NCBI RefSeq assembly: GCF_025151215.1
Contig: NZ_CP102286.1
Location: 2,604,001-2,668,000, forward strand
Length of the DNA stretch: 64,000 nucleotides
Direction: 5' to 3'
Source of the DNA: Parabacteroides merdae ATCC 43184
GTDB taxonomy: Bacteria; Bacteroidota; Bacteroidia; Bacteroidales; Tannerellaceae
The stretch's first letter is position 1, and each line of letters begins with the position of its first letter. Under the pieces are notes generated by a model. That model saw nothing but the letters and a program-made list of their open reading frames with translations. It did not search any database and was not told the origin of the DNA. Shown here in pieces: positions 43,698 through 59,112 of this stretch. A program made the position numbers and the translations under genes.

Positions 43698-44141
43698 CTA
43701 TTCTCTCTTAAAATAGACGTATTTGGGTTCTGTCGGGACATAGCTTTCATCATCCCACAATGTACTTGTGATCATCAAGTCGGCACTATACCGGTTACAA
43801 GCGATAGGCACGTTATGGACACGGCACTGGCGAAGCAACATCTGGATATCGGCCTCGTGCGGCTGTGGGTTCAAGTCGTCGATCAAGAACACGGCAAGAT
43901 CTATTTCCTTTCGTACTACCATTGCTGCAATTTCGGCATCTCCACCCAGCGGACCGGAATGCATACAGGCGATATCCGCCGTAACACCTTTTTCTTCCAT
44001 CGCCTTCCGAACCAGATTTCCGGTTGTCCCAGTACATACGATATGATGATGGGACAGAAATTCAGCATTGTGAATAGCCCATTCTACCATGTCAGCCTTC
44101 CGGTTGTCGTGCGCAACAAGCGCGATTGTTAACTTCTTCAT
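43698..44141 (-). CDS. mgsA: methylglyoxal synthase
   Basis: 147 residues from the ATG at 44141 (MKKLTIALVAHDNRKADMVE). Family motifs: CTGTTGNLVRKAMEEKG, HSGPLGGDAEIAAMVV (phosphate loop and the catalytic Asp) and FLIDDLNPQPHEADIQMLLR. It converts dihydroxyacetone phosphate to methylglyoxal, a glycolytic overflow valve. Its place inside the leu operon, 102 bp after the second isopropylmalate-synthase-like gene and 32 bp before leuB, is unexpected. Confidence 0.96.
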   Translation of the reverse strand: MKKLTIALVAHDNRKADMVEWAIHNAEFLSHHHIVCTGTTGNLVRKAMEEKGVTADIACMHSGPLGGDAEIAAMVVRKEIDLAVFLIDDLNPQPHEADIQMLLRQCRVHNVPIACNRYSADLMITSTLWDDESYVPTEPKYVYFKRE

Positions 44142-44243
44142 AACTTCAATAATTAATAATTTATCAATGTGATAATTTGCCAATGTACTAATATGCCGAT
44201 AGCCTACATCGCAATTCTCTTTCATTGGCACATCGACACATCA

Positions 44244-45752
44244 TTATTGTTCTATCTTGTTCAGCATCTTCAATGTCGCCTTGATAGCAGCCTCCGTCTG
44301 GTCTGCATCAAGACCACGTGTTTTAAAGTCCACTCCTGCATAATTCCAACTAATGATAGTCTGCACAAAGGCATCGGTCCGTCCGCCGGGTGGTATAGAA
44401 ACGGAATAATTAGTCAGCATCGGGAAAGGACGGCCCAGATCGGTATATATCTTCCGCAGGGCACGAACGAAAGCATCGTACTGTCCATCACCGGAAGCCG
44501 ACTCCTGGTAGGCTTCGCCGTTAATCTCTATCTTCAGGGTGGCAACCGGTTTCAGTCCCTGTGCCAAAGACAGCGAATAGTTCAGAATACGGATGCGCTG
44601 GTCCGCCATCGTATCGTGATGGAGCACATCGCTGATGATATACGGAAGGTCCTCCGTCGTAACCATTTCTTTTTTATCACCCAGTTCGATAATCCGCTCG
44701 GTAACCTTGCGCATAGAGTTCTCGTCGATATCGATCCCCAGTGCTTCAAGGTTCTTACGGATATTCGCCTTACCGGAAGTCTTGCCAAGAGCATATTCGC
44801 GGACACGGCCGAAACGTTCGGGCAACAGATCATTGCAATACAGATTGTTTTTGCTGTCACCATCAGCATGGACACCGGCACATTGCGTAAAGACATGTTC
44901 CCCGATAATCGGTTTGTTAGGCGGAATATGAACACCGGAGAAAGTTTCCACCAATCGGCTGGCATAATTGATCCGTTCTTCCCGAAGTGTCGTATCCACT
45001 CCCAACTGATCTTTCAACACGGCAAGCACACTGCTAAGCGGGGCATTCCCGGCACGCTCTCCCAATCCGTTCAATGTAGTATGAAGTCCTTTTATACCGG
45101 CACGGACAGCAGAGTAGACATTCGCTACCGCCAGATCATAGTCGTTATGAGCATGAAAATCGAACTTCAAGTCCGGATAGCGTGTAACCATTTCCTTACA
45201 ATATTCGTAAGTATTTCCAGGGTTCAGGATGCCAAGCGTATCAGGCAACATGAAACGCCGGATCGGCAAGTCACGAAGCGAATCGACTGCTTGAAAGACA
45301 TATTCAGGAGAGTTTTTAATACCGTTCGACCAATCTTCCAGATAGATGTTCACGGCAATCCCCCGTTCGATTGCCTGGTTGATGACGGAACGTATATCGG
45401 CAAAATGCTGTTCGGGAGTCTTACGAAGCTGTTCCGTCACGTGCTTATAAGAGCCCTTGCAAAGCAAGTTTACCACACGGCAACCAGCCGCTTCGATCCA
45501 GTTTAACGAAACATCACCATCCACAAAGCCGAGCACTTCGAGCTTCTGGATGTTTCCGGTACGTTCCGCCCAGGAAGCGACGCGCTTCACGGCTTCAAAC
45601 TCACCGTCCGAGACACGTGCAGATGCGATCTCCAGACGGTTCACACCCAGATCAAGCAATGCCTGTGCAATGCTCAACTTCTCATGCGCCGCAAAAGAAA
45701 CTCCCGATGTCTGTTCCCCGTCACGCAGGGTGGTATCCATTATTTCTATCAT
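44244..45752 (-). CDS. second 2-isopropylmalate synthase / citramalate synthase-like enzyme
   Basis: 502 residues. HMGL-type TIM barrel: [40 protein letters not shown] and GLGERAGNAPLSSVLAVLKD, with metal-binding HxH. The C-terminal 110 residues are the allosteric LeuA dimer domain (KIEINGEAYQESASGDGQYD). It differs clearly from the LeuA at 47.8-49.3 kb (for instance SGVSFAAHE in place of PGCQLNSIE). I infer a (R)-citramalate synthase feeding 2-oxobutyrate to isoleucine, with LeuCD and LeuB doing the later steps; a homocitrate or second IPMS role is possible. It lies between leuD (48 bp) and mgsA. Confidence 0.85.
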   Translation of the reverse strand: MIEIMDTTLRDGEQTSGVSFAAHEKLSIAQALLDLGVNRLEIASARVSDGEFEAVKRVASWAERTGNIQKLEVLGFVDGDVSLNWIEAAGCRVVNLLCKGSYKHVTEQLRKTPEQHFADIRSVINQAIERGIAVNIYLEDWSNGIKNSPEYVFQAVDSLRDLPIRRFMLPDTLGILNPGNTYEYCKEMVTRYPDLKFDFHAHNDYDLAVANVYSAVRAGIKGLHTTLNGLGERAGNAPLSSVLAVLKDQLGVDTTLREERINYASRLVETFSGVHIPPNKPIIGEHVFTQCAGVHADGDSKNNLYCNDLLPERFGRVREYALGKTSGKANIRKNLEALGIDIDENSMRKVTERIIELGDKKEMVTTEDLPYIISDVLHHDTMADQRIRILNYSLSLAQGLKPVATLKIEINGEAYQESASGDGQYDAFVRALRKIYTDLGRPFPMLTNYSVSIPPGGRTDAFVQTIISWNYAGVDFKTRGLDADQTEAAIKATLKMLNKIEQ

Positions 45753-49356: not shown

Positions 49357-49439
49357 TGAAAAAAGCCTCTCTCACAAGGAAGCGAGAAAGGCTTTTTCAT
49401 ATCTTAATGCCCTGTAAAGCATACACAGTCTCACTTCCT
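49357..49439 (-). terminator. leu operon attenuator (terminator plus antiterminator)
   Basis: The minus-strand RNA has a terminator just before leuA: arms near 49387-49397 and 49361-49373 (AAAAGCCTTTCTC pairing with GAGAGAGGCTTTT), then a U-run. Upstream, region 2 (49427-49439, AGGAAGUGAGACU) can pair over 10 bases with region 3 (49377-49386, CUCGCUUCCU) inside the terminator. It can also pair over 7 bases with region 1 (49478-49484, AGUCUCA) in the leader ORF. The 1:2 and 2:3 helices are mutually exclusive, as in classical attenuators. Confidence 0.85.
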
Positions 49440-49505
49440 ATTCCGTTCCCAGAGTAGAATAATGTTTAGAGAAATAATGAGACTATTTAGCATTACCTGT
49501 TTCAT
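49431..49505 (-). CDS. leu operon leader peptide
   Basis: A 24-codon ORF from an ATG at 49505 to a TGA at 49431. Residues 6-18 are L-N-S-L-I-I-S-L-N-I-I-L-L: five Leu and four Ile codons in thirteen, followed by Trp and a charged tail. It begins 33 bp downstream of the promoter -7 box and its stop codon lies in attenuator region 2. This is the layout of a translated control peptide: a ribosome stalled at Leu (or Ile) codons covers region 1 and frees region 2 to form the antiterminator. Too short for usual gene finders, it is inferred from codon content and RNA folding. Confidence 0.85.
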   Translation of the reverse strand: MKQVMLNSLIISLNIILLWERNRK

Positions 49506-50995: not shown

Positions 50996-52039
50996 TCAAT
51001 TGTTTTCCGGGCGCAATTTACGAACGACTGCACCTGCACGCCACATTTCGCTTTCGCGCAATGCTGCCAGTTCTTTTTCCAAACCTTCACGATAATCCGG
51101 CTTACTGTTCGTATCGATAGAACGCTGCGCTTCGTTACCGCAGGCGACCTCCCGGTATAATTTTTCAAATACAGGCTTAACGGCATCGTGGAACGGCCCC
51201 ATCCAGTCTAAAGCGCCACGCTGTGCAGTAGTCGAACAGTTTGCATACATCCAGTCCATTCCGTTTTCAGCAAACAGCGGCATCAAAGACTGAGTCAGTT
51301 CTTCGACTGTTTCGTTGAATGCTTCGGAAGGTTCGTGGCCGTTTTCACGCAATGTTTCGTATTGAGCCAACAATAAACCTTGGATAGCCCCCATCAAAGT
51401 TCCACGTTCACCAGTCAGATCGGAATAAACTTCCTTCTTGAATGTCGTTTCGAACAGATAGCCTGAACCAACGCCGATACCCAAAGCGATCACACGATCC
51501 CATGCTCTACCGGTTGCATCCTGGAAAATTGCATAGCTTGAATTCAAGCCACGTCCCTGCAGGAACATACGACGCAAAGAAGTACCAGAACCTTTCGGTG
51601 CGACTAGAATCACGTCAACATCAGCAGGAGGGATAATATTGGTACGTTCCTTGTAAGTGATAGCAAAACCATGAGAGAAATACAGCGCTTTTCCCGGAGT
51701 CAGATATTTTTTGATACGCGGCCAGCATTCGATCTGAGCGGCGTCGGAAAGCAACACCTGTATGATAGTTGCTCTTTCGCAAGCTTCTTCAATACCGAAC
51801 AGTGTTTCACCCGGTACCCAGCCGTCGGCAACAGCTTTGTCATAGGTTTTACCAGGACGCTGTCCTACGATAACGTTGAAACCATTATCACGCAAGTTCA
51901 AGCTCTGTCCAGGACCTTGAACACCGTAACCGATAACTGCAATCACTTCATCTTTCAATACTTCTCTTGCCTTTTCCAACGGAAATTCTTCGCGGGTTAC
52001 TACGTTTTCGTCAACACCGCCAAAATTCATTACTGCCAT
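50996..52039 (-). CDS. ilvC: ketol-acid reductoisomerase
   Basis: 347 residues, class I length. The dinucleotide-binding motif is VIGYGVQGPGQSLNLRDNGF. The beta2-alphaB loop reads VGQRPGKTYDKA and lacks the paired Ser/Arg typical of strictly NADPH-dependent forms, so cofactor preference is worth testing. Metal ligands lie in SDLTGERGTLMGAIQGLLLA and the Glu-rich C-terminal helices. It isomerises and reduces acetolactate and acetohydroxybutyrate. It is the last ilv gene, 85 bp after the thioesterase, with a REP-like repeat in the gap. Confidence 0.96.
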   Translation of the reverse strand: MAVMNFGGVDENVVTREEFPLEKAREVLKDEVIAVIGYGVQGPGQSLNLRDNGFNVIVGQRPGKTYDKAVADGWVPGETLFGIEEACERATIIQVLLSDAAQIECWPRIKKYLTPGKALYFSHGFAITYKERTNIIPPADVDVILVAPKGSGTSLRRMFLQGRGLNSSYAIFQDATGRAWDRVIALGIGVGSGYLFETTFKKEVYSDLTGERGTLMGAIQGLLLAQYETLRENGHEPSEAFNETVEELTQSLMPLFAENGMDWMYANCSTTAQRGALDWMGPFHDAVKPVFEKLYREVACGNEAQRSIDTNSKPDYREGLEKELAALRESEMWRAGAVVRKLRPENN

Positions 52040-52124: not shown

Positions 52125-52862
52125 TCAATGCCACATAACAGCAGCACGGCAAATCGCTTTGCCTTCATTACAGATCGCCATATCATATTTTCCGTTATCA
52201 GCCTCCCTCTTGTACAACATGAGTTTCATCCCATATTTGCCTTCAGACTGGTAGGCGATTTCGAAACGTTTGATATCTTTTGTCTTGAACAGGTCAAGAT
52301 CAAACAGGTCTAGAAGATGTTCCATATACTTGATACTGTTCAGGTGGCCGTTGATATCAAGGTCGCTGTACTTAATGAAATAAGGAACCCCTTCCGTCTC
52401 ATTCTCCACAGCCGCAATCTTTCCCGGCTTTTCTATCGGGCAGGGGCGATCCGTGACATAAGCGCTCAACCTGGCGATATCCAACAAGGTCGGCCGGCGT
52501 GTTTCCACATCGATAGCCGCCCAAATAGAACGGGCGTAACCGAATGTCTTACCGTTGCCATCCACCAGCTCAAAACAACGGCTGGTAAAGAGGCGGCCGA
52601 CTTCATCCACCCAGGTATAAAGAGTTATAGGTTCGGACATGGCTGGATATTCGATCATTTCGATCGCCAGACGGGAAAGAACCCAAGCCGTATGCCGTTC
52701 TGACATATCGTTGAAACCGAATCCGCGTTCAGCAGCATGGCTGGATGCGACATGTATCAGATAGTTTCCGATCATCGGTATCGTTACACGTCCACGAAAA
52801 TCCAACAGGTACGGTTCCGTGACGAAATGAAATTCCCCTATTTTGCTTTTATCTTTATCCAT
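52125..52862 (-). CDS. acyl-ACP thioesterase
   Basis: 245 residues from the ATG at 52862 (MDKDKSKIGEFHFVTEPYLL). Two tandem hot-dog units: the first has GNYLIHVASSHAAERGFGFN and AWVLSRLAIEMIEYPAMSEP, and the second has the plant-FatA-like catalytic block FIKYSDLDINGHLNSIKYME (Asn-His). It releases free fatty acids from acyl-ACP. It is embedded between ilvN (40 bp upstream) and ilvC (85 bp downstream) on the same transcript. I infer a link between branched-chain precursors and branched or short acyl chains, but the chain specificity is unknown. Confidence 0.9.
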   Translation of the reverse strand: MDKDKSKIGEFHFVTEPYLLDFRGRVTIPMIGNYLIHVASSHAAERGFGFNDMSERHTAWVLSRLAIEMIEYPAMSEPITLYTWVDEVGRLFTSRCFELVDGNGKTFGYARSIWAAIDVETRRPTLLDIARLSAYVTDRPCPIEKPGKIAAVENETEGVPYFIKYSDLDINGHLNSIKYMEHLLDLFDLDLFKTKDIKRFEIAYQSEGKYGMKLMLYKREADNGKYDMAICNEGKAICRAAVMWH

Positions 52863-52876
52863 GATTCTTTTCTGTT

Positions 52877-52902
52877 GGGGCAGTTCGCAAACCACCCGTA
52901 CG
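52877..52902. repeat. REP-like repeat, ilv copy 2
   Basis: Contains GGGCAGTTCGCAAACCACC-CGTACG, in the 40-bp gap between ilvN and the thioesterase gene. Confidence 0.55.
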
Positions 52903-53454
52903 TTATTTTTTTTCCTGCAACTTACGTTCCATTTCGGCCAACATATCGCTCAAACGCTCGACACGGCTTTTTGTGATCGCAACGCGACCGGAACGGATGA
53001 ACTGCAAGACACCGATCGTTTCGCTCAACTCCCTGAAAAGGGCTTGCGTCTCATCGTAATGACCACTCTTTTCGAGAACGACACACGTTTCGTTCATTTC
53101 CAGAATACGGGCGTTATATTTGCGAATCAGATCCTCGACCGTCCCCATCTTGATAAACAGCTCGGTGCTCAGCTTATAAAGGGCGATCTCCTGGAAAACC
53201 AGATCTTCATCCGTATTATAGTAAGCCTTCAAGATATCCACCCGTTTGTCGATCTGCTTCACAACCTTGTCGATCATATCTTCATCGGCAAATGTCGTGA
53301 TTGTAAATTTATGTATACCCTGTATGGCGGAAGGTGAAACGGAAAGCGTCTCGATGTTCAACTGCCGACGCGTAAAGATAATCGTAATCTGGTTCAGAAG
53401 ACCTACTGTATTCTCTGAAAAGATAATAACGGTATATAATTTTTTTGTTGTCAT
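52903..53454 (-). CDS. ilvN: acetolactate synthase small (regulatory) subunit
   Basis: 183 residues. The N-terminal ACT domain is YTVIIFSENTVGLLNQITII, then FTRRQLNIETLSVSPSAIQG, the valine-binding part. The C-terminal IlvN domain is second, with KLSTELFIKMGTVEDLIRKY. It confers valine feedback control on IlvB. It starts 12 bp after ilvB. Its length fits the long form (IlvH-like), with an extra Lys/Glu helix at the end. Confidence 0.94.
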   Translation of the reverse strand: MTTKKLYTVIIFSENTVGLLNQITIIFTRRQLNIETLSVSPSAIQGIHKFTITTFADEDMIDKVVKQIDKRVDILKAYYNTDEDLVFQEIALYKLSTELFIKMGTVEDLIRKYNARILEMNETCVVLEKSGHYDETQALFRELSETIGVLQFIRSGRVAITKSRVERLSDMLAEMERKLQEKK

Positions 53455-53466
53455 AGCTTCACCTCC

Positions 53467-55167
53467 TTACTTATCTCCTAATATCATGTTCGTTACGCTT
53501 CCTCCGGCAGGCACCATCGGATATACCATACCACACGTTTCCACATTGGCGACCAACACAAACGCTCCGTTATGGTTCAACATCTCGGCAATAGCCTCAT
53601 CCAGTTCCTCCCGTTTTTCAACGGTACGGCCAGCGATACCGTACGCTTTCGCGATCGCCACGAAATCCGGGTTCTCCATGATCGTATTCGAATAACGTTC
53701 GTGGAAGAACAACTCCTGCCACTGACGTACCATTCCTAAGAAATTATTATTGAGGATAATGATTTTCACATCCAGTTTTTCCTGCATAATGGTTCCCAAC
53801 TCCTGAATCGTCATCTGCATCCCACCGTCACCGGTAAAGAAGCAGACCGTACGGTCAGGTGCACCGAACTTGGCTCCCATAGCAGCGGGAAGGCCAAAGC
53901 CCATCGTCCCCAGACCACCTGAAGTAACCACGCTACGAGTGCGTTTATATTTGAAATAGCGGACACCCATCATCTGGTTCTGTCCGACATCCGTAACTAA
54001 AACAGCATCGTTTCCGGTCGCCTCGGACACTTTTCGAACGACTTCACCCATTTTCAAAGATCCGTTCATCGGATACAACTCCTTCTCGATCACCTTTTCA
54101 TACTCTTCCTGTGCATCCGGCTCAAACTCAGCATTCCACTCCGGACGTTTCCGTTCTTCCAACAACGCAGTTATCATCGGAATGGTATGTTTGGCATTTC
54201 CGAGAACCTTCACATCGACCGGTACATTCTTCCCGATCTCCGAGTTGTCGATATCCAAATGGATCACTTTCGCCTGCTTGGCGTATGTCTTCAAATCACC
54301 TGTAACACGATCGTCGAAACGCATACCGATGGCGATCAACACGTCACATTCATTGGTCTTCCTGTTCGGACCGACATTGCCGTGCATACCCAACATACCC
54401 TTATTCAAAGGAAAATCGGAAGGCAACGCCGATAGACCGAGAACAGTCGAACCGGCAGGAATGTCATTCTTCAACAGGAATGCTTTCAGCTCCTCTTCAG
54501 CACCTCCCAACAGAACACCCTGTCCGACCAGGCAGAACGGTTTCTCCGCTTTATTGATCAACGCGGCAGCCGCTTTAATCCGATCCTGGTTGATATCCGG
54601 TTCCGGCTGATAGCTGCGGATATAGTCTACTTTCTTATATTCATACTCTACAAATCCGACCTGAGCATCCTTTGCCAAATCGAGTACAACAGGCCCCGGC
54701 CGTCCGGTAGAAGCGATATAAAAAGCACGTGAAACAGCCCACGCTATCTCTTCCGGCTTGCGAATCTGGTACGCCCATTTGGTGATCGGTTGCGTAATGC
54801 CGATCACATCGACTTCCTGGAAAGCATCTGTTCCAAGCAATGGAGAAGGGACCTGTCCGGCTATGACCACCATAGGCGTGCTGTCCATCAGTGCATCGGC
54901 AATGCCGGTGATGGTATTTGTTGCGCCGGGTCCTGAAGTAACCAACGTCACCCCTACTTTACCGGATACACGGGCATACCCTTGTGCAGCATGCGTCGCC
55001 CCTTGTTCATGACGCACCAATACATGCTTCAATTTATCCCTGTAATCGTACAAACTATCGTAAATAGGAATCGCTTGCCCGCCGGGATAACCGAAAATCG
55101 TATCTACTCCTTCAGCTATCAGTGACTTCAGCAAAGCTTCCGAACCGGTTATCTTCTGTTTCTCCAT
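53467..55167 (-). CDS. ilvB: acetolactate synthase large (catalytic) subunit
   Basis: 566 residues. The thiamine-diphosphate Glu lies in VRHEQGATHAAQGYARVSGK; the FAD/central domain includes LLIAIGMRFDDRVTG-like DVLIAIGMRFDDRVTGD; the Mg-ThDP motif is FTGDGGMQMTIQELGTIMQE, then ILNNNFLGMVRQWQ. It makes acetolactate from two pyruvates or acetohydroxybutyrate from pyruvate and 2-oxobutyrate. It lies 23 bp after ilvD. Confidence 0.97.
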   Translation of the reverse strand: MEKQKITGSEALLKSLIAEGVDTIFGYPGGQAIPIYDSLYDYRDKLKHVLVRHEQGATHAAQGYARVSGKVGVTLVTSGPGATNTITGIADALMDSTPMVVIAGQVPSPLLGTDAFQEVDVIGITQPITKWAYQIRKPEEIAWAVSRAFYIASTGRPGPVVLDLAKDAQVGFVEYEYKKVDYIRSYQPEPDINQDRIKAAAALINKAEKPFCLVGQGVLLGGAEEELKAFLLKNDIPAGSTVLGLSALPSDFPLNKGMLGMHGNVGPNRKTNECDVLIAIGMRFDDRVTGDLKTYAKQAKVIHLDIDNSEIGKNVPVDVKVLGNAKHTIPMITALLEERKRPEWNAEFEPDAQEEYEKVIEKELYPMNGSLKMGEVVRKVSEATGNDAVLVTDVGQNQMMGVRYFKYKRTRSVVTSGGLGTMGFGLPAAMGAKFGAPDRTVCFFTGDGGMQMTIQELGTIMQEKLDVKIIILNNNFLGMVRQWQELFFHERYSNTIMENPDFVAIAKAYGIAGRTVEKREELDEAIAEMLNHNGAFVLVANVETCGMVYPMVPAGGSVTNMILGDK

Positions 55168-55190: not shown

Positions 55191-57029
55191 TTAATCTTCT
55201 ACTACTCTCACTCCACCCTTATCGGCCGAACTGACCATCTTACCGTAAGCTCTCAAGGCTTTTGAGACGACACGCTGGCGATGAGGCGGCGTAAAGGCTT
55301 TTGTGCCGCGGGCTTCTTCCGCTTTACGGCGTTCTGCCAACTCTTCATCGCTTACCTTCACATTAATCGTACGTTCAGGGATATCAATCTCGATTATATC
55401 GCCGTCTTTCACCAGTCCAATCGCTCCTCCTGCCGCAGCTTCGGGAGAAATATGACCGATAGAAAGACCGGAAGTACCGCCACTGAAACGACCGTCTGTG
55501 ATCAGCGCGCACTCCTTGCCTAAATGGCGGCTTTTTATATAAGAAGTAGGATAAAGCATTTCCTGCATACCCGGACCACCCTTCGGTCCTTCGTGTGTGA
55601 TCACCACCACATCGCCCGAGACGACTTTTCCACCGAGGATGCCTTCGCAAGCCGCATCCTGCGAATCGAACACTTTCGCCGGACCGGCAAACTTCCAGAT
55701 GCTTTCATCCACACCGGCCGTCTTGACCACACAACCGTCCAGCGCGATATTTCCTTTCAGGACAGCCAGGCCGCCATCTTTGGAATAAGCATGCTCGATA
55801 TCACGGATACATCCGGCGGCACGATCGGTATCCAGTTCCTTATAATAGGTTTCCTGCGATCCCATCCGAATGCTGAAACGATGGGCGGGAGCGCTCTTGT
55901 ATTTCTTGACAGCCTCGTCCGTCACATTCGGCGAGGTGATAGCAAATTTATCCACGGCTTCGGCAAGCGTCATTCCGTCCACACGCTTCACATTCCCGTC
56001 TACCAAGCCGTTTTTCAGCAGCTCGTTCATGATTCCCATGATACCACCGGCACGGTTCACATCCTGGACGTGGTAGGTGTGCGTGTTGGGAGCAACCTTG
56101 CAGAGGCAAGGAGTCTTGCGGGAGAGCATATCGATATCGTCCATCGTGAAGCCCGCCTCAGCTTCCTGCGCGATGGCGAGCAAGTGGAGAACCGTATTGG
56201 TGGAACCACCCATTGCAATATCCAATGACATGGCATTCAGGAAAGCCTGACGGGTAGCGATACTGCGGGGAAGAACCGATTCATCTCCGTCACGATAGTA
56301 TTTATAGGCATTTTCTACAATCTGCCGGGCAGCATCGCGGAACAGCTGTGTACGGCCCACATGCGTAGCGACAATCGTACCGTTGCCCGGAAGAGCCAGG
56401 CCGATCGCTTCGTTCAGGCAGTTCATCGAGTTGGCCGTAAACATACCGGAACAACAACCGCATCCCGGACAGGCATTCCGTTCCACCTGCGCGATCCGTT
56501 CATCGCTGACCGAAGTGTCGGCCGATTCGATCATGGCATCGATCAAATCCAGATGGCGGTTATCCAGCTCACCGGCTTCCATCGGACCGCCGGAGACAAA
56601 GATAGTCGGAATATTGAGCCGCATGGATGCCATTAGCATCCCCGGAGTGATCTTGTCGCAATTGCTAATGCAAACCATTGCATCGGCTTTGTGGGCATTC
56701 ACCATATACTCGACGCTGTCCGCAATAATATCACGCGAAGGAAGCGAATAGAGCATTCCGTCGTGTCCCATAGCGATACCATCGTCAATGGCAATCGTAT
56801 TGAATTCGGCAGCAAAGCAACCCAACTTTTCAATCTCCGCTTTTACCTGCTGCCCGATCTCATACAGATGGACATGGCCGGGTACAAACTGGGTAAATGA
56901 ATTCACAATGGCTATAATCGGTTTACCGAACTGCTCTTCTTTCAGACCGTTGGCACGCCACAAAGCGCGAGCCCCGGCCATGCGTCTGCCCTCTGTGCTG
57001 TATGAACTTCTTAACGGATTCTTCATCAT
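55191..57029 (-). CDS. ilvD: dihydroxyacid dehydratase
   Basis: 612 residues from the first of two adjacent ATGs at 57029 ([20 protein letters not shown]). Fe-S and Mg ligands: [20 protein letters not shown] and [20 protein letters not shown]; catalytic C-terminal region [20 protein letters not shown]. It makes 2-oxoisovalerate and 2-oxo-3-methylvalerate. It is the first gene of the operon ilvD-ilvB-ilvN-thioesterase-ilvC. The leader peptide and attenuator lie upstream. Confidence 0.97.
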
Positions 57030-57044
57030 ATTATTTGTTGTTTT

Positions 57045-57067
57045 CGAACGGCTCACGAACCGCCCCT
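57045..57067. repeat. REP-like repeat, ilv copy 3
   Basis: CGAACGGCTCACGAACCGC followed by CCCT: a palindromic GGTTCGTGAGCC-like core between the attenuator and ilvD. Confidence 0.5.
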
Positions 57068-57093: not shown

Positions 57094-57174
57094 TTAAAAA
57101 AGCCCTTCTCTGTATGGAGAAAGGCTTAAGAAATATCTTTATACGACTTCACAATTTCTTGCACACCTTTCTCC
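57094..57174 (-). terminator. ilv operon attenuator (terminator plus antiterminator)
   Basis: The terminator on the minus strand is 57100-57127 (AAGCCTTTCTC / GAGAAGGGCTT, then TTTTTT). Region 2, directly after the leader stop codon (57166-57174, GGAGAAAGG), is a perfect 9-base complement of region 3 (57116-57124, CCUUUCUCC) in the ascending arm of the terminator. When 2:3 forms, the terminator cannot. A shorter 1:2 pairing uses UCCUU within the leader ORF and AAGGA at its stop. Confidence 0.85.
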
Positions 57175-57234
57175 TTACCTGCTAATGACTAGAAGGACCA
57201 CCACGAGAATAATATGCAATACATTGTTCATCAT
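57175..57234 (-). CDS. ilv operon leader peptide
   Basis: A 19-codon ORF from an ATG at 57234 to a TAA at 57175. Residues 5-17 read V-L-H-I-I-L-V-V-V-L-L-V-I: five Val, four Leu and three Ile codons in thirteen. It starts 34 bp downstream of the -7 box and ends one base before attenuator region 2. This composition matches the expected control of a pathway making Val, Leu and Ile, just as the leu leader is Leu/Ile-biased without Val in the run. It is inferred from codon content and folding. Confidence 0.87.
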   Translation of the reverse strand: MMNNVLHIILVVVLLVISR

Positions 57235-57267
57235 CTTTTCTTACGTCTTTATTATTGTTTGACGCTG

Positions 57268-57298
57268 CAAATGTAGAACAATAATTCATACCTCCAAA
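57268..57298 (-). promoter_or_regulatory. promoter of the ilv operon
   Basis: Minus strand: TTTG (57295-57298), 19 bp, TACATTTG (57268-57275). Same sequence logic and spacing as the leu operon promoter. Confidence 0.85.
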
Positions 57299-57475: not shown

Positions 57476-57490
57476 CTATATATTAAAATA

Positions 57491-57551
57491 AAAGCAGATC
57501 TTTAAGGTGAAGGCAGACATTCGGACTGGCTTCACCTTAAAGATCTGCTTT
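57491..57551. repeat. perfect 22-bp inverted repeat
   Basis: Arms 57491-57512 and 57530-57551 are perfect complements (core GCAGATCTTTAAGGTGAAG) around a 17-nt loop. No T-run follows, so it is not a standard terminator. Confidence 0.85.
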
Positions 57552-57589
57552 CACCCTGTCTCGTACAGATTTAATTATAACTTCTTACG

Positions 57590-57690
57590 TTTTTGCCCAA
57601 GGCCGAAAGCCTTTTTGCCTAATGGCAAAAGCCTTTTCGACCTTGGGCAAAAAGATATTCGACGTAGGTCAAAAGCTCTATGGCTTTATA
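57590..57690. repeat. nested palindrome built of TTTTTGCC...GGCAAAA words
   Basis: TTTTTGCCCAAGG at 57590 pairs with CCTTGGGCAAAAA ending at 57653; inside them TTTTTGCC-TAAT-GGCAAAA makes an inner hairpin flanked by AAAGCC/AAAGCC words. Degenerate copies continue to about 57690. The remaining intergenic sequence to 57861 holds nothing recognisable. Confidence 0.8.
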
Positions 57691-57896
57691 GCCTGACGAT
57701 AAAAGTATGGCAGTTGCCACTCTATGATACTTTTCGTACCCGACTCATTTACAAGTGTCAGTTATTTACATTTATAGACAACCTATAACAGGATTTTTTA
57801 ATACACAGTCAATCTATTCAGGACGAGACAAAATTAAAAGTCCGGTTGTGTAACTACCCAAATGTCGGAATCGAAACAGTTTCTAAATATAATTCG

Positions 57897-57904
57897 TATC
57901 TTTG
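57897..57904 (+). promoter_or_regulatory. -7 box of the MalY/PatB-type gene
   Basis: TATCTTTG, 32 bp upstream of the ATG at 57937. It lies inside the longer open frame starting at 57862 and so supports the downstream start. Confidence 0.65.
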
Positions 57905-57936
57905 ACCCCGATCAACAGACTGAACTTATAGAGATA

Positions 57937-59112
57937 ATGAAACAATACAACTTTGACGAGATCATCGAACGTCGTGGAACCAATTGTGTCAAGTACGATC
58001 TTCTAAAGAAAGACTTCGGTAACGAGAACCTTGTTCCACTTTGGGTAGCCGACATGGATTTCCGGACACCAGACTTTATTGTCAACGCAATCAAGAAGCG
58101 TCTGGAGCATGAGATTTTCGGGTACACATTCGATTCGGATTCCTATTATAACAGTATCATCGAGTGGGTACATTATAAACATAACTGGAAAATCCAACGC
58201 GAATGGCTTAGTTATATTCCCGGCATCGTAAAGGGAATCGGTTTCGTTTTGCAGTGCTTCACCAAACCTGGTGACAAAGTAATTATCCAGCCACCGGTCT
58301 ACCATCCTTTCCGCATCGTTCCGGAAAACATGCACCGTGAGGTTGTCTACAACCCGCTCAAAACAGTAGACGACATTTACGAGATGGATTTCGAGAATCT
58401 TGAATCGGTCATCGATGAGCATTGCAAAGTCCTGATCCTTTGCAACCCTCATAATCCAGGCGGTGTCGTCTGGAAAAAAGACACACTGGTCAAGTTGGCC
58501 GAGGTTTGTGCCAAACACAATATACTCGTTATCTCCGATGAAATACATGCAGAGATGGCTTATCCGCAATATACGCATCATCCGTTTGCAACGGTTTCGG
58601 AGACAGCCGCCAATTGCAGCATTACTTTCATGGCTCCGAGCAAGACTTTCAACATTGCCGGAATCGTCACCTCCTATTCGATCATTCCCAATGCGGAAAT
58701 ACGAGAAAAATTCTATTCCTTCATGGAAGCAGGAGAATTCAATGCCGGGACGATCTTTGCCTATACGGCAACAGAAGCGGCTTATACATACGGAGCCGAA
58801 TGGTTGCAACAGATGCGGATGTATATCACTGAGAATGTCCGCTTCGTAGATGAATATTGCAAATCCAAACTCCCGAAGATCAAAGTCTATCCCCCTCAGG
58901 CATCTTTCCTTGTATGGTTGGATTGCCGTGACCTGAAACTAAGCCAGCCTGAACTGGTAAGCTTGTTCCAAGATAAAGCCGGCCTGTTGCTGAACGACGG
59001 AAGCATGTTCGGTCCCGGAGGTGAAGGGCATATGCGTTTGAATATCGGCTATCCGCGTTCCGTCCTGTCTTCCGCACTGGATGCTTTGAAAAAAGCGATA
59101 GATAAGAAATAG
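57937..59112 (+). CDS. MalY/PatB-family PLP-dependent aminotransferase (C-S lyase)
   Basis: 391 residues from the ATG at 57937 (MKQYNFDEIIERRGTNCVKY). MalY/PatB hallmarks: the N-terminal NCVKYD block, LPLWVADMDF-like LVPLWVADMDF, CNPHNPGGVVW, ISDEIHAEMAY (Asp for the PLP N1) and FMAPSKTFNIAG with the Schiff-base Lys. The family usually acts as cystathionine beta-lyase or a cysteine-S-conjugate lyase; aminotransferase activity is possible. It is divergent from the ilv operon with 0.6 kb of repeats between, so co-regulation is not implied. Confidence 0.88.
   Translation: MKQYNFDEIIERRGTNCVKYDLLKKDFGNENLVPLWVADMDFRTPDFIVNAIKKRLEHEIFGYTFDSDSYYNSIIEWVHYKHNWKIQREWLSYIPGIVKGIGFVLQCFTKPGDKVIIQPPVYHPFRIVPENMHREVVYNPLKTVDDIYEMDFENLESVIDEHCKVLILCNPHNPGGVVWKKDTLVKLAEVCAKHNILVISDEIHAEMAYPQYTHHPFATVSETAANCSITFMAPSKTFNIAGIVTSYSIIPNAEIREKFYSFMEAGEFNAGTIFAYTATEAAYTYGAEWLQQMRMYITENVRFVDEYCKSKLPKIKVYPPQASFLVWLDCRDLKLSQPELVSLFQDKAGLLLNDGSMFGPGGEGHMRLNIGYPRSVLSSALDALKKAIDKK

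Follow-up and report, generated by a model that had tools for sequence, protein, structure and literature searches.

A predicted ribosome-mediated attenuator with a Val/Leu/Ile leader peptide in front of the ilv genes of Parabacteroides merdae and related Bacteroidota

To judge from its sequence and from that of its relatives, the stretch upstream of ilvD in Parabacteroides merdae ATCC 43184 very probably attenuates transcription of the likely operon ilvD-ilvB-ilvN-x-ilvC by a ribosome-mediated mechanism. This interpretation had been put forward in an initial annotation, and the in silico and comparative evidence presented here supports it. The mechanism itself is known and classical; what appears to be new, judging by the titles and abstract openings listed in our searches, is its predicted use for an ilv operon in the Bacteroidales, which represents a modest novelty.

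We analysed a 64,000-nt stretch of the P. merdae chromosome, hereafter the window, in which the ilv leader precedes ilvD on the minus strand. Reading of the sequence revealed a promoter-like element, TTTG-N19-TACATTTG (57268-57298; TTTG at 57298-57295, TACATTTG at 57275-57268), which we take to be of the Bacteroidota -33/-7 promoter type. It is followed by the leader ORF MMNNVLHIILVVVLLVISR, whose 19 codons extend from an ATG at 57234 to a TAA stop codon at 57175 (57175-57234). In Bacteroidota, translation mostly starts without Shine-Dalgarno pairing. Residues 5-17 of the encoded peptide, V L H I I L V V V L L V I (57184-57222), correspond to the putative control codons. In silico translation confirmed the count first given for them, namely five Val (residues 5, 11, 12, 13 and 16), four Leu (6, 10, 14 and 15) and three Ile (8, 9 and 17), i.e. 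12 of the 19 codons of the leader. The antiterminator 5' arm GGAGAAAGG (57174-57166) is located immediately 3' of the leader TAA and is included in segment 2 (GGAGAAAGGTGTGCAA, 57159-57174). Its exact reverse complement, segment 3 (CCTTTCTCC, 57124-57116), sits in the 5' arm of a predicted intrinsic terminator (AAGCCTTTCTCC-ATACA-GAGAAGGGCTT plus a T run, 57095-57127; hairpin of -15.3 kcal/mol) and is common to the antiterminator and the terminator. The terminator stem is formed by AAGCCTTTCTC and GAGAAGGGCTT, and is followed by T6 (57100-57095). In the minimum free energy fold of the window leader, segment 1 (TTGCATATTATTCTC, 57205-57219) pairs with segment 2 when the ribosome is absent. The promoter-like element, the 19-codon ORF, the perfect 9-base antiterminator (57166-57174 with 57116-57124) and the terminator had all been described in the initial annotation, and each was found correct to the base.

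The 147-nt ilv leader folds at -46.3 kcal/mol compared to -29.1 ± 3.5 kcal/mol for dinucleotide shuffles (z = -4.9), and none of 200 shuffles was equally stable. Furthermore, when 137 ORFs of the window were tested (at least 100 aa long and starting at least 450 nt from the beginning of their strand), only ilvD and leuA were preceded by both a branched-chain amino acid (BCAA)-rich leader, defined as at least 8 Val/Leu/Ile in 12 codons, and a terminator of -9 kcal/mol or lower. The leu instance is real, and the argument that two instances in one window are unlikely to arise by chance stands. An exact search for the ilv antiterminator/terminator pattern across the 4.38-Mb genome returned a single occurrence, with none for a reversed-pattern control, and revealed no second copy of the ilv module.

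The first structural gene downstream of the leader, also on the minus strand, is ilvD (55191-57029; NF009103, 1070.9 bits, and TIGR00110, 794.7 bits), which starts at an ATG at 57029 or 57026, the GTG at 57056 being the mechanical ORF start. It is followed on the same strand by ilvB (53467-55167; TIGR00118, 697 bits) and ilvN (52903-53454; TIGR00119, 81.1 bits), encoding the large and small subunits of acetolactate synthase, and by ilvC (50996-52039; TIGR00465, 309.7 bits), encoding ketol-acid reductoisomerase; all these matches are above the cut-offs of the models. Between ilvN and ilvC, a minus-strand gene (52125-52895) codes for a 256-aa protein without NCBIfam match, presumably acyl-ACP thioesterase-like. 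These five genes are likely to form one operon. On the other side of the leader, two long inverted repeats were noticed by eye at 57490-57660, between the ilv promoter and a divergent PatB-like C-S lyase gene (57862-59112, TIGR04350).

A search with the IlvD protein gave matches in 33 of 41 genomes, the genome of the window included, and 30 loci were analysed. To these we added 80 named loci (the best 80 of 590) and six loci with a close IlvD (L111-L116), taken from 197 genomes drawn across the class, 53 of which had an IlvD match, giving a set of 116 loci whose counts include related genomes. Positive loci have, by selection, at least 8 Val/Leu/Ile in 12 codons as well as a terminator. In this set, which includes the best 80 of 590 named loci, the automatic test detected a leader ORF and a terminator before ilvD in 58 of the 116 loci: 29 of the 30 loci of P. 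merdae and its relatives, 25 of the 80 named loci and 4 of the 6 class-wide loci. Absence of the ORF from close relatives had been named beforehand as evidence that would count against an attenuator; leader and terminator were present in 28 of the 29 close loci other than that of the window itself. The sole failure, L022, carries the leader ORF and has no terminator accepted by the script. When loci were sorted by title, leader and terminator were found in 58 of 91 Bacteroidota-side loci versus none of the 25 loci from other phyla (Desulfobulbaceae, Spirochaetes, Neisseria, Rodentibacter and others), which all belong to the best 80 of 590 named loci and three of which (L079, L086 and L089) have less than 200 nt of upstream sequence.

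The automatic test failed in 33 of the 91 Bacteroidota-side loci of this set, named loci (best 80 of 590) included. A BCAA-rich ORF is present and an accepted terminator absent in L022, L032, L040 and L082, while upstream sequence is short in L052, L055, L059 and L066. No leader was found upstream of ilvD in L060 and L070 (Prevotellaceae by title), L115 and L116, a situation that could reflect either loss in these lineages or another type of control. Inspection of these four loci by eye revealed a TTTG-type promoter motif near the ilvD start codon. Beyond this set, we sampled 23 loci with a distant IlvD (35-40% identity) from 46 such matched genomes in other orders of the class. Three of them (L126, L133 and L139) possess a leader, a terminator and an antiterminator of 8-12 bp, two others (L130 and L135) have a leader and a terminator and lack a good antiterminator, and the remaining ones, L136 among them, showed no leader. 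Finally, among the 56 positive loci for which 80 nt or more of upstream sequence was available (L018 and L046 were too short and were omitted), 54 have TTG-N18-23-TAnnTT[T/C]G ahead of the leader ORF; letter shuffles gave 1.8 such loci on average and 6 at most.

The best pairing that the region around the leader stop can make with the 5' arm of the terminator exceeded that of dinucleotide shuffles (300 per locus, p ≤ 0.05) in 83% of the 58 positive loci, with a median p of 0.0066, and was not better than shuffles at 0.05 in 10 of them. In an alignment of 48 dereplicated leaders, antiterminator pairs were formed in 375 of 427 cells versus 191-263 of 379-430 when the partners were slid by 1-3 columns, and terminator pairs in 502 of 526 cells versus 195-367 of 519-526 when slid; the pairs were taken from the window sequence itself, a choice that biases the comparison towards the unslid register. 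Pairing was kept with changed letters in the distant loci L026, L028, L029, L030, L048, L053 and L084, as illustrated by the antiterminator pairs AATCGGTATGT/ACATGCCGATT of L030 and GTGAGAGAATG/CATTCTCTTAC of L028; L126, which belongs to another order of the same class, has the pair AGGTGAGGCACT/AGTGCCTCATTT. From family to family, the letters of the peptide and of the hairpins vary; the Val/Leu/Ile codons are kept, and antiterminator pairing is kept in most cases. Antiterminator and terminator are mutually exclusive and display compensating changes, the antiterminator being weak or absent in 10 of the 58 loci. The leader anatomy and its conservation, the pairing and the codon bias are observed in the sequences. 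Relative to the end of the leader stop codon, the first base of the antiterminator arm falls at -6 to +4 nt in 44 of the 58 loci, 10-27 nt before that point and within the ORF in 12, and about 15 nt after the stop in the other two (L027 and L075). Of the indel runs in the leader ORF, 16 of 49 had a length divisible by three, compared to 23 of 139 of those in the spacer, with alignment artefacts in the distant rows.

We infer that transcription starting downstream of the promoter-like element would either terminate in the leader or extend across the operon, depending on where a ribosome translating the leader ORF stalls. With an ample supply of charged Val-, Leu- and Ile-tRNA, the ribosome would reach the stop codon and cover GGAGAAAGG; CCTTTCTCC would then be free and the terminator would form. 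If any of the three amino acids became scarce, the ribosome would be expected to stall in residues 5-16. GGAGAAAGG would then stay exposed and could pair with CCTTTCTCC while the 3' arm of the terminator had yet to be synthesized, so that transcription would proceed into ilvD.

Placement of the control codons fits this class of attenuator in an in silico model, as a stalled ribosome frees the antiterminator arm and a ribosome at the stop codon covers it. The model folds the RNA located 3' of the ribosome at each codon, with a ribosome edge of 13 nt, counted from the first base in the A site, and leaves out kinetics and polymerase pausing. It was applied to the 53 loci whose antiterminator reaches 7 bp or more; L027, L044, L069, L075 and L091, with a best run below 7 bp, were excluded. 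The antiterminator was permitted at 590 of 607 Val/Leu/Ile positions, with a mean probability of 0.93, the lowest mean for a single locus being 0.13. With the ribosome at the stop codon, the mean antiterminator probability was 0.006 and the value was below 0.1 in 52 of the 53 loci. The number of loci occluded at the stop codon varied with the edge, from 39 of 53 at 10 nt to 53 of 53 at 16 nt. For the full leader of the window, in the shorter reading that begins at the second ATG, the antiterminator probability was 0.98-1.00 at A-site codons 4-14, 0.73 at codon 15 (Val) and 0.01 at codon 16 (the last Ile). Therefore, the last Ile codon lies past the switch point, which falls between codons 15 and 16 in this reading.

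Without a ribosome, the antiterminator probability of the window leader was 0.11, i.e. termination is predicted. Across the 53 loci, the antiterminator was predicted to form without a ribosome in 37, and clear sequestration (below 0.3) in 13. A protector hairpin is a feature of attenuators of the E. coli trp style. Since the antiterminator is predicted in 37 of the 53 loci without a ribosome, support for such a 1:2 hairpin as a general feature is not uniform; the folding predictions have it prevail in the window, but not in most of the relatives. The feature in common is an antiterminator arm placed at the leader stop or ahead of it, a position that the ribosome would occlude. In L026, L028, L030 and L112, the finished leader mostly prefers the terminator at equilibrium in the full-length model, hence antitermination in these loci would need the co-transcriptional order of folding.

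The sister leader, found before leuA on the minus strand of the window, contains the ORF MKQVMLNSLIISLNIILLWERNRK (49431-49505). Analysis of its pairing revealed an antiterminator 5' arm, AGGAAGTGAGA (49429-49439), that overlaps the leader stop and pairs, with one G-U, with TCTCGCTTCCT (49387-49377) in the 5' arm of a terminator of -24.7 kcal/mol (49359-49398). Using a looser threshold of 5 in 12 codons, the script detected counterparts in 22 of 30 leuA loci. An additional leu leader, MRNSIIILISLFLSLIIMEHGQRVV, was found at L166, with both of its Val at the very end, and another that the script had missed was recognized by eye at L156. L166 was kept outside the codon percentages given below and a weak match, L169, was dropped. 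The script found no leu leader at L155 and L158, two leuA loci of the same genus, nearly all other same-genus loci having one.

The initial annotation had proposed that the control codons match the products of each pathway, and the codon content of the leaders bears this out. Val accounts for 21.6% of residues in 47 distinct ilv leader peptides versus 1.4% in the 19 distinct peptides encoded by the leu leaders of 22 of the 30 leuA loci, while Leu (16.1% and 21.9%, respectively) and Ile (16.2% and 18.1%) are found in both. The Ile codons of the leu leader, which had been left unexplained, fit with the gene content of the leu operon, as it includes a citramalate-synthase-like gene. The gene order is leuA, leuC, leuD, a CimA-like gene, a methylglyoxal synthase gene and leuB. 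Among NCBIfam models, the product of the CimA-like gene (44244-45752) scores highest with (R)-citramalate synthase CimA, at 638.9 bits versus 338.9 for the next, a score that falls below the 950-bit cut-off of the model; the best solved relative of the protein is the citramalate synthase of Leptospira (388 bits versus 209 for the next). Two models for threonine deaminase found nothing near their cut-offs in the genome (best scores of 70.8 and 64 bits versus 378.75 and 411.3, respectively). Because the operon contains the CimA-like gene and the genome has no threonine deaminase near cut-off by either model, the leu operon is predicted to serve both leucine and isoleucine synthesis, and isoleucine is probably made via citramalate. 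The leu operon would thus comprise leuACDB together with a predicted citramalate synthase supplying isoleucine, and its leader, which is devoid of a Val run, would respond to Leu and Ile. The methylglyoxal synthase gene (43698-44231) is located inside the leu cluster, between the CimA-like gene and leuB.

Riboswitches and T-boxes share the layout of a structured 5' leader with a terminator ahead of a biosynthetic gene, and the ilv leader is far more stable than its shuffles, as would suit control of the terminator by a metabolite riboswitch, a T-box or a bound protein with the ORF being incidental. We consider this very unlikely. A cmscan of the whole window with 4227 Rfam families returned two tRNAs only, and no T-box, Bacteroid-trp or other leader family; the ilv leader itself matched no family at gathering score, and its sub-threshold matches up to an E value of 5 were confined to the PyrR (E 0.53) and L10 (E 0.92) leaders. 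The riboswitch or T-box reading was rejected on this lack of an Rfam match. Moreover, the Val/Leu/Ile codons and the antiterminator/terminator pairing recur across families with changing letters, and the Val content of ilv and leu leaders differs as their products do.

The same recurrence argues against a plain terminator with constitutive read-through, as the peptides diverge strongly by family, yet the Val/Leu/Ile codons and the pairing stay. In such a scenario, to which we assign a still smaller probability, the BCAA-rich ORF would encode a small membrane peptide or be a chance ORF. Its appeal is that short hydrophobic ORFs are common and that runs of Val, Leu and Ile look like transmembrane segments. 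However, the spacing between stop and antiterminator is kept, with an arm start at -6 to +4 nt in 44 of 58 loci, the leu leaders are poor in Val, and a his leader of the same genome carries a His run. The least probable of the alternatives considered here, for which we see hardly any room, is that attenuation is real and leader translation acts mainly via mRNA stability or access of Rho. Couplings of leader translation to mRNA stability or Rho access do occur in other bacteria, but the strong hairpin and T run resemble an intrinsic terminator, and the 5' arm of this hairpin is the partner of the antiterminator, which argues against this alternative.

Other amino acid leaders were found in the P. 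merdae genome. Upstream of the trp genes, Rfam family Bacteroid-trp (RF01692) matched L180 at 1108-1239 with 95.5 bits, and the leader ORF MRTIIVNTYWWWRSLQLIRS contains a Trp-Trp-Trp run. A His-rich leader lies before hisG (L174, about 1285-1475), with the ORF MKSTVLHLHHHHHYNGQ followed by a terminator of -19.8 kcal/mol, a 9-bp antiterminator and, upstream, the promoter-like motif TTTG-N18-TAACTTTG; it has no Rfam match. A Thr-containing short ORF, MTLTGFTYHTWALTMTPWGV, was also observed in L175, upstream of an ORF of 840 aa that contains an aspartokinase. A thr leader at thrA is not claimed for MTLTGFTYHTWALTMTPWGV, as the best terminator, at -5.2 kcal/mol, is not convincing.

Taken jointly, these leaders make us lean towards a broader reading in which much of the Bacteroidota would run an amino acid regulon on ribosome-read attenuators: ilv sensing Val/Leu/Ile, leu sensing Leu/Ile because the same operon would make isoleucine through citramalate, his sensing His and trp sensing Trp. 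Close coupling of transcription and translation would be needed, and the antiterminator arm would be joined to the leader stop, often without a protector hairpin. In many lineages, a leader that is not translated would then be ON, not OFF as in E. coli trp. The ilv attenuator would represent a likely control mechanism for branched-chain amino acid synthesis in a major bacterial group. Leader codons may also report on the layout of a pathway, the Ile codons of the leu leader pointing to the citramalate route. Furthermore, the ilv leader could serve as a natural reporter making transcription-translation coupling in Bacteroidota directly testable, and it represents an RNA family without match among the Rfam 15 models used here.

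In E. coli, attenuators precede ilvGMEDA (ilvL) and ilvBN (ivbL). Like these, the ilv leader described here combines a leader peptide rich in branched-chain codons, a terminator and an exclusive antiterminator upstream of ilv genes, a likeness of architecture. Unlike them, it has a Bacteroidota-type promoter motif and an antiterminator arm abutting the stop codon, and, in the window, ilvD is the first gene. A search of titles and abstract openings found no published account of a Bacteroidales ilv leader among the matches listed; the 2010 survey of Lopatovskaya et al. (Mol Biol 44:128) could contain one. A survey of noncoding RNAs describes an ilvD motif confined to Veillonella (PMC8632094), and the accessible text of a B. 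thetaiotaomicron transcriptome study mentions leader-like sORFs generically, with 'ilv' absent from it (PMC7366714). Bacteroid-trp, tabulated as a motif by Weinberg in 2010 (PMC2864571) and described in Rfam as 'Bacteroidete tryptophan peptide leader RNA', is a peptide-leader RNA of the same group with one representative before the trp genes of the same genome. It differs in having Trp codons and another sequence, and the ilv leader has no match to the RF01692 model. In Flavobacterium psychrophilum, clues to leader-peptide attenuation before amino acid operons were obtained from the transcriptome (PMC9723704); these leaders belong to the same phylum and share the same inferred mechanism, while the main text of that report has no occurrence of 'ilv'. 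Lastly, the Corynebacterium ilvB-II uORF motif and the ilvB-OMG and Leptospira ilvB motifs (PMC10272879) resemble the ilv leader in that they are BCAA-rich uORFs before ilv genes found by comparative genomics, and differ from it in that they occur in other lineages, precede ilvB and adopt different structures.
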